Assembly (NCBI GenBank): GCA_003669605.1
Contig: QWOP01000036.1
Coordinates: 62,001 to 126,000 of the forward strand
DNA length: 64,000 nucleotides
Direction: 5' to 3'
Source of the DNA: Planctomycetota bacterium
GTDB taxonomy: Bacteria > Planctomycetota > Planctomycetia > Pirellulales > UBA1268
Shown: positions 18,161-19,459 of the stretch, one piece after another
Numbering within the stretch: position 1 is the stretch's first letter
Layout of the letters: the number at the start of each line of letters is the position of its first letter
Translations under genes and position numbers: made by a program
Notes under the pieces: model-generated
What the model was told of the DNA's origin: nothing
Seen by the model: the letters and a program-made list of their open reading frames with translations, nothing else
Database searches by the model: none

Positions 18161-19459
18161 ATGAACACCTGCCGGATGACTGGCTTGGCGATCGGGGTGG
18201 TGCTCTGGGGCTCTCTGCCGGGAGGGTGGTTCCCGGGAGCCTGGGTCGGCCCCGCCGTCCGGGCCGCGGAGGCCCTGTCCCAGCAGCCTCGGCTGCAGTT
18301 TTTCAACCGCTCCCCAGAACCGGCCGATGTGCTGTGGATCGACGCCGACGGCAGGAGGACGGTGGTGGGACGAGTCGCCCCCGGCGCAAACACCATTGTT
18401 GACACGACTCTCGGTCATCGCTTCGCCGTGGTCGGTCACTCCAGCGGCAGCGAAGAATCGGTGACGGCAACGGTCCCGGTGCAGGCCTTCGTGTTCCGGC
18501 CACCGGCCGCTGATCAGCTGCCAGCCGCAGAAGAGAACGGTGGAGAAGGAACTGTGATCCCGCCACCGGCGCGCCTCAAGGTCGACCCGTTCCATACGAA
18601 ATACACCAGCGCCGGAGGGTTTCCCATCGTCGCCTCGGCGCGCGTCAACGACCACGCCCTCCTGGAGGCGGCATACCTTGTCAATCAATTGCTGGCTGCG
18701 AGGCCCGATGTCCGTCAGGCATTAGTGGACTCGGGAACGCGACTGTGCGTCATCGGCCACGACGAATTCACCACCGATCTTCCTGAGTTCGCGTTTCTCG
18801 CCGATGCCCCGCTGGCCGATTTCCCCGGGCTCTCCCCCCGCGACTTCTGGGATGCGCGGGCCCGTGGCACTGGAGGAAGCGACACCGATCCCTACTCCTC
18901 CTGCGGCGAAGAGAATCTGCTGGGCTTCGAAGGGGATCCCTATGCAGCCGAGTGCATCCTGATCCACGAGTTTGCGCATGCGATCCATCTCCGTGGCATG
19001 GCCAACGTCGATCCCACCTTCGACGGACGGGTGAGGGCGGCGTATGAATCTGCCATGCAGGCGGGGCTGTGGCGGGGGAAGTACGCCTCCGTCAACCATC
19101 ACGAATACTTTGCCGAAGGGGTGCAGAGTTGGTTCGACGACAACCGCTTCAACGACCACGACCATAATCACGTTCACCTCCGTCACCAGTTGCTGGAATA
19201 CGATCCCGGCTTGGCGGCACTGTGCCGCGAGGTGTTCGGCGACACCGAACTCTCCTACACCAAGCCAGCCGCCCGACTCACCGCTCACTTGGCAGACTAT
19301 GATCCGGCAACTGCTCCGCGGTTTCAGTGGCCCGAGCGTCTGGAGGAGGCGAAACGGGCGATCCGCCGGCACGCCGAGGAACGGTCGCGGCCGGCCGCTG
19401 CAGACTCTCCGTCCACCGCCGATCCATCCCCCGACGACGCGCAGGGGCCACGACCATGA
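18161..19459 (+). CDS. Secreted zinc metalloprotease with N-terminal pVHL-like beta domain
   Basis: Exported protein of 432 residues. A signal peptide (1 to about 36, ending VRAA) is followed by residues 44-112, which align without gaps to the beta domain of human von Hippel-Lindau protein: FFNRSP, VLWIDADG, PG, and GH at 85-86. The main domain holds the zinc site HEFAH (269-273) in CILIHEFAHAIHLRG, with a downstream acidic helix EYFAEGVQSWF supplying a likely third ligand (E315 or E319), a gluzincin-like layout. The C-terminal 35 residues are a low-complexity Ala/Pro/Asp tail. The stop overlaps the AAA+ gene start (ATGA). Start ATG is preceded by GGAGA. Protease activity is inferred from the motif; substrate unknown. 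Confidence 0.85.
   Translation: MNTCRMTGLAIGVVLWGSLPGGWFPGAWVGPAVRAAEALSQQPRLQFFNRSPEPADVLWIDADGRRTVVGRVAPGANTIVDTTLGHRFAVVGHSSGSEESVTATVPVQAFVFRPPAADQLPAAEENGGEGTVIPPPARLKVDPFHTKYTSAGGFPIVASARVNDHALLEAAYLVNQLLAARPDVRQALVDSGTRLCVIGHDEFTTDLPEFAFLADAPLADFPGLSPRDFWDARARGTGGSDTDPYSSCGEENLLGFEGDPYAAECILIHEFAHAIHLRGMANVDPTFDGRVRAAYESAMQAGLWRGKYASVNHHEYFAEGVQSWFDDNRFNDHDHNHVHLRHQLLEYDPGLAALCREVFGDTELSYTKPAARLTAHLADYDPATAPRFQWPERLEEAKRAIRRHAEERSRPAAADSPSTADPSPDDAQGPRP

Follow-up and report, generated by a model that had tools for sequence, protein, structure and literature searches.

Hydroxyproline is recognised in animal oxygen sensing by the pocket of the pVHL beta domain, where Y98 hydrogen-bonds the hydroxyproline carbonyl. 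The contacts to hydroxyproline are made by W88, Y98, H110 (through its main chain), S111, H115 and W117 (PMC9528729), and the human substitution Y98N, which affects HIF binding, is among the mutations of type 2B disease (PMC8295262). The occurrence of the VHL domain in bacteria is already known to Pfam and from one computational paper, in which a Litorilituus VHL-domain protein, called a 'tumour suppressor', was described by computation only (PMC9002001). Apart from that paper, a literature search, thin on subscription journals, returned no functional study of a bacterial VHL domain, no report of a conserved pocket on proline peptidases and no report of linkage between VHL or protease genes and hydroxyproline genes. 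Two further systems are relevant here: the Pro-Pro endopeptidase PPEP-1, whose Trp103 stacks on the substrate proline (PMC12828418), and the bacterial L-hydroxyproline pathway, which comprises an epimerase, a D-Hyp dehydrogenase and a DHDPS-like deaminase (PMC6608401).

The window, the whole 64,000-nt stretch of planctomycete DNA that was analysed, contains a gene in which the preliminary description had recognised a VHL-type domain joined to a secreted HExxH protease. The features of the gene and of its product (hereafter the query protein) are listed in Table 1. The composition of the protein was borne out: HExxH is found in 64 relatives, the signal peptide is plausible, and the N-terminal sequence indicates that the query protease is probably secreted. 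The surrounding genes occur in the order carB, CMD-family gene, query gene, AAA ATPase. All five genus loci whose flanks are long enough retain this order, and the query gene and its genus relatives are therefore orthologous. An operon with the immediate neighbours was rejected as a functional clue: the gene order is conserved within the genus only.

Table 1. Features of the query gene and of the encoded protein (positions in the window).
Feature	Position	Strand	Basis or conservation
Complete ORF (432 aa), zinc metalloprotease with an N-terminal VHL-type beta domain	18161..19459	+	Translation, model, genus synteny
Residues 1-36, probably a signal peptide, with a hydrophobic stretch that ends in VRA-AE	18161..18268	+	Reading of the sequence
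VHL-type beta domain, residues 44-112, predicted seven-strand beta sandwich	18290..18496	+	Profiles, shuffles, predicted fold
W59 (pVHL W88, pocket)	18335..18337	+	Invariant in 17 N-terminal relatives; Ala/Gln in 9 same-genus relatives
V69 (pVHL Y98, pocket; Tyr lost)	18365..18367	+	Tyr in 44/52 other bacterial VHL domains
T82 (pVHL S111, pocket)	18404..18406	+	Thr/Ser in 69/69 domains outside the genus; Ala in 9/9 same-genus
H86 (pVHL H115, pocket)	18416..18418	+	His in 66/69 domains outside the genus; Gln/Thr in same-genus
F88 (pVHL W117, pocket)	18422..18424	+	Trp in 52/52 DPPIV-type and C-terminal domains; Phe in 17/17 of the query class
M34-like (Pro-Pro endopeptidase / ATLF-type) metalloprotease domain, residues ~140-405	18578..19375	+	Sequence comparison with relatives and PPEP-1
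W230, opposite substrate-binding Trp103 of PPEP-1	18848..18850	+	Kept in 61/64 relatives
HEFAH zinc-binding motif, residues 269-273	18965..18979	+	HExxH invariant in 64 relatives
Y308, opposite catalytic Tyr of PPEP-1	19082..19084	+	Kept in 63/64 relatives
E315, probable third zinc ligand	19103..19105	+	Kept in 64/64 relatives

Residues 47-93 of the query protein aligned to pVHL residues 76-122 without gaps, at the proposed constant offset of 29, and exactly the 12 proposed identities were recovered over the 47 positions (F47, N49-S51, P52, W59, D63, G64, P74, G75, G85 and H86). The ungapped segment has a BLOSUM62 score of 47, a value with a z of 6.8 against shuffles and reached by none of 20,000 of them. 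It is also the top-scoring window of the query protein, 1,000 whole-protein shuffles of which peaked at 37. The Pfam VHL model (PF01847) remained under its curated cut-off of 21 bits both for the whole query protein (13.5 bits, E 0.075) and for the domain alone (17.1 bits, E 0.0055); relatives of the domain exceed the cut-off, reaching 48.7 bits. Comparison of a profile of 29 related domains with the PDB yielded 24 distinct human pVHL sequences (E 2.7e-7 to 5.8e-6) and nothing besides human pVHL at E 10.

AlphaFold2 models were obtained for the full-length query protein (pLDDT 93.2, pTM 0.91) and for the beta domain alone (pLDDT 94.1, pTM 0.83). The best 50 Foldseek matches in the PDB were all pVHL for both models; those of the domain-alone model had TMq values mostly of 0.74-0.81 and, for nearly all of them, an rmsd of 1.9-2.7 A. 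The family profile together with the predicted fold identify the N-terminal domain as a true, divergent VHL-type beta sandwich of bacterial origin, homologous to the beta domain of pVHL.

The protease domain belongs to a family widespread in Planctomycetota, Verrucomicrobiota and Poribacteria, in which 63-64 of 64 relatives retain H269, E270, H273, Y308 and E315. When the protease profile was compared with the PDB, the top match, a weak one, was Pro-Pro endopeptidase (E 0.002). The HExxH motif, the downstream Glu and the catalytic Tyr are spaced as in PPEP-1, the position of PPEP-1 Trp103 is occupied by W230, and the positions of PPEP-1 Lys101 and Glu184 differ in the query family. We call the domain M34-like, its nearest match being the Pro-Pro endopeptidase, and cleavage by the query protease may be proline-specific. 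In the Pfam search of the query protein, Peptidase_M90 (PF06167) scored 10.8 bits (cut-off 26.2) and ATLF (PF07737) had no listed match. Both cut-offs were passed by a single relative, L126, where a VHL domain lies between two M34-like protease domains (L126:559-2457), the second of which passes them. At L011:1390-3240 and L063:2031-3481 the protease domain is duplicated, the additional copy being more divergent and adjoining or fused to the first.

The assignment of T82, F88 and V69 to the pVHL positions S111, W117 and Y98, as well as the identity of W59 and H86, was confirmed in the alignment. The pocket of the query therefore reads W-V-T-H-F, and the complete W-Y-[ST]-H-W set is absent. This complete set was found in 25 of 28 further bacterial VHL domains, mostly on DPP-IV-like peptidases, a sample gathered with a VHL model and biased toward pocket-bearing copies, and in 16 of the 24 C-terminal VHL domains carried by the protease family, all of which (24/24) have W, S/T, H and W. 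When the DPPIV-type and C-terminal domains are pooled (52 domains), the five pocket positions all fall within the eight most conserved. For 19 C-terminal copies, collected via the protease and not via the VHL model, only W, T, H and W plus one Asn and one Gly are invariant; by conservation the position of the Tyr is only 29th of 59.

The class of the query protein, with the VHL domain N-terminal to the protease, showed a different pattern. W, T, H and F are present in 17 of 17 members and belong to the ten invariant positions of the class, Tyr is exchanged for Asn, Gln or Lys, and no member (0/17) has the complete pocket. This invariance suggests constraint on an altered pocket in the N-terminal class. 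The loss of Tyr should weaken hydroxyproline binding, since Y98N affects HIF binding in humans; hydroxyproline binding by the query copy is uncertain. The pocket could also have been kept, family-wide, for folding.

A PF01847 match that passes the cut-off is present in 46 of 343 phylum genomes and in 27 of 59 Poribacteria genomes. Among the best 30 VHL loci of the phylum, 28 have the domain on peptidases, either of the DPPIV_N/Peptidase_S9 type or of the M34-like type. On the protease family, the domain is N-terminal in the class of the query and C-terminal in another class, which takes in most of the Poribacteria proteases seen. A quick protease tree recovered the N-terminal class as one well-supported set with several domain losses, and placed the query as sister to nine relatives that have lost the pocket.

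Several further arrangements were observed. Proteases of the query family with C-terminal VHL domains, several with a complete pocket, are present at Poribacteria loci L100, L110, L082, L076, L094 and others. Poribacteria include sponge symbionts, and collagen is abundant in sponge tissue. L136 encodes a GH127-family enzyme with a C-terminal VHL domain (two ORFs); adjoining ORFs at L136, L219 and L225 also end in VHL domains, and in some the H115 equivalent is Ala or Asn. At L121, the VHL domain is on a short membrane protein, and the gene at L033:4148-6001, directly before an N-terminal VHL protease gene, encodes a sulfatase-like protein whose VHL domain is C-terminal.

Analysis of the relative loci revealed a link to hydroxyproline catabolism. 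In Verrucomicrobiales (L055:4948-11578), genes for a DHDPS-like protein, an M34-like protease, a 4-hydroxyproline-epimerase-like protein, a DPPIV-VHL protein and an FAD D-amino-acid-dehydrogenase-like protein follow one another on one strand. The same layout was found at L078:2996-8353, as far as the contig end, and the first three genes of this order at L092:3943-6293. The DPPIV VHL domains of the L055 and L078 clusters have the full pocket. The top NCBIfam matches of the epimerases were 4-hydroxyproline epimerase models, slightly under the equivalog cut-off. Epimerase genes were present in 7 of 80 relative loci (L033, L052, L055, L063, L065, L078 and L092), which have a mean length of 10.3 kb and several of which are related, hence non-independent. 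From one or two epimerase genes per genome of several Mb, we estimate that well under one such locus would be expected by chance. A DHDPS-like gene alone immediately precedes the gene of the N-terminal VHL protease at L032 and L145/L016, and immediately follows it at L178/L026.

The host genome has DHDPS-like, epimerase-like and FAD dehydrogenase-like genes in a row (L175:3937-7261, contig C69), away from the query gene, and the epimerase family occurs in 10 of 12 genus genomes. No hydroxyproline genes adjoin the query at its own locus. Around the planctomycete DPPIV-VHL genes (~40 loci, ~7 kb) none were found, except for a dehydrogenase-like gene in L232; this near-absence shows the linkage to be lineage-limited. 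A strong Pro_racemase match was found in 17 of the 46 PF01847 genomes versus 49 of 297 others (Fisher p 0.002, kinship ignored); outside the class the co-occurrence had a p of 0.046, kinship again ignored. This co-occurrence backs the hydroxyproline link weakly. The production by the host of its own hydroxylated protein was considered and rejected: a prolyl hydroxylase was sought in the genome, which is 84% complete, and no match to PF13640 was found, so that an external substrate is the more likely. Host contig C88 begins with a short ORF encoding collagen-like repeats (L236/L237, C88:7-273).

The preliminary description had suggested that the pocket directs the protease to hydroxylated substrates. 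At the level of the family this idea gained ground, from the full pocket on peptidase-borne relatives and from the linkage of the protease family to hydroxyproline-catabolism genes. Bacterial VHL domains may be modules for recognition of proline or hydroxyproline, carried mainly by secreted peptidases of the DPP-IV and Pro-Pro-endopeptidase-like types, most of which would be proline-specific. Such a module would steer its peptidase to hydroxyproline-rich protein, which would then be consumed and feed amino-acid catabolism. We put forward tentatively, and with some doubt, the general proposal that these domains are hydroxyproline readers guiding DPP-IV-type and M34-like peptidases to collagen- or extensin-like protein, sometimes within hydroxyproline operons. 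In the class of the query, the pocket would have been rebuilt, with Trp, Thr, His and Phe kept and Tyr exchanged, and it would have been lost across most of the genus. The query would be a late, altered copy, probably with weak hydroxyproline binding or a changed ligand. With moderate confidence we favour this reading, and for the query itself an altered proline/hydroxyproline-recognition accessory domain on a probably secreted M34-like protease.

For this particular copy the targeting idea fared less well, Val and Phe occupying the positions of Y98 and W117, and the main alternative sees the domain as a fading remnant, a ligand-free folded spacer or stabiliser descended from a ligand-binding ancestor. 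In 9 of 9 same-genus relatives the pocket reads A/Q-A-A-Q/T-Y/F, with W, T and H lost and the protease retained, the five checked being at the same syntenic site; several close relatives have lost the whole VHL domain. Within the genus, dN/dS is ~0.2-0.4 for the VHL domain (0.56-0.93 in pairs with L010) versus 0.02-0.15 for the protease. The domain values are nevertheless well under 1 in most pairs, which argues that the fold is still selected. The query also retains W, T, H and F exactly like 17 distant relatives, and the invariance of Phe88 indicates that the pocket of the class was under constraint. We consider the remnant a serious possibility, though rather doubtful.

Alternatively, the domain may inhibit or brace its own protease by closing over the active site, the pocket holding a loop of the same chain. 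The pTM of the two-domain model would allow a fixed domain arrangement, and the N-terminal position resembles that of a propeptide. However, the domain also occurs at the C terminus of this protease family and on the unrelated DPPIV and GH127 proteins, where inhibition would have to be reinvented, and this explanation appears improbable. Chance resemblance of a domain with no homology to VHL could be argued only from the sub-threshold Pfam score of the query on its own, and it was ruled out by the family profile (pVHL the sole PDB match, E 3e-7), by the fold match (TM 0.74-0.81), by the shuffle tests and by the relatives that pass the Pfam cut-off.

The association of the pocket with bacterial proline peptidases and hydroxyproline clusters leads to a testable idea of a VHL role outside animals, and hints at where the VHL pocket may have originated. 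If hydroxyproline recognition by these domains is true, the oxygen-sensing pocket of animals would have served, earlier or in parallel, to locate hydroxyproline as a food source, and the bacterial domains would be a source of natural hydroxyproline-binding modules. The query protein, as a decayed or altered example, is chiefly a pointer to its family.

Compared with the pVHL beta domain (PF01847, human residues ~63-154), the query domain has the same predicted seven-strand sandwich and the 47-residue ungapped alignment. Its pocket retains the equivalents of W88, S111 (as Thr) and H115, but differs at Y98 and W117. Unlike pVHL as an E3 substrate receptor, the query protein has no elongin-binding alpha domain, and the protease domain comes next instead. 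The other bacterial VHL-domain proteins share the domain and the N-terminal signal-like stretches, and the close relatives also the protease; most have the full pocket, which the class of the query lacks.

The protease domain shares with PPEP-1/Zmp1, PPEP-2 and PPEP-3 the HExxH motif, the Glu ligand, the catalytic Tyr, the S-loop Trp and a GLG-type loop. The similarity is remote, however. The query is longer and has an extra domain, and neither Lys101 nor the Glu184 of the Glu184-Glu185 tandem is conserved. The same gluzincin-type motif region is weakly matched by ATLF and Peptidase_M90, but the query remains under both cut-offs.

The enzyme set of known hydroxyproline clusters (PMC6608401) is present beside query-family proteases in Verrucomicrobiota, and also in the host genome. 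In the known clusters the protease is located elsewhere, with an M9 collagenase in the same regulon, whereas the Verrucomicrobiota clusters described here have an M34-like protease and a VHL-bearing DPPIV inside.
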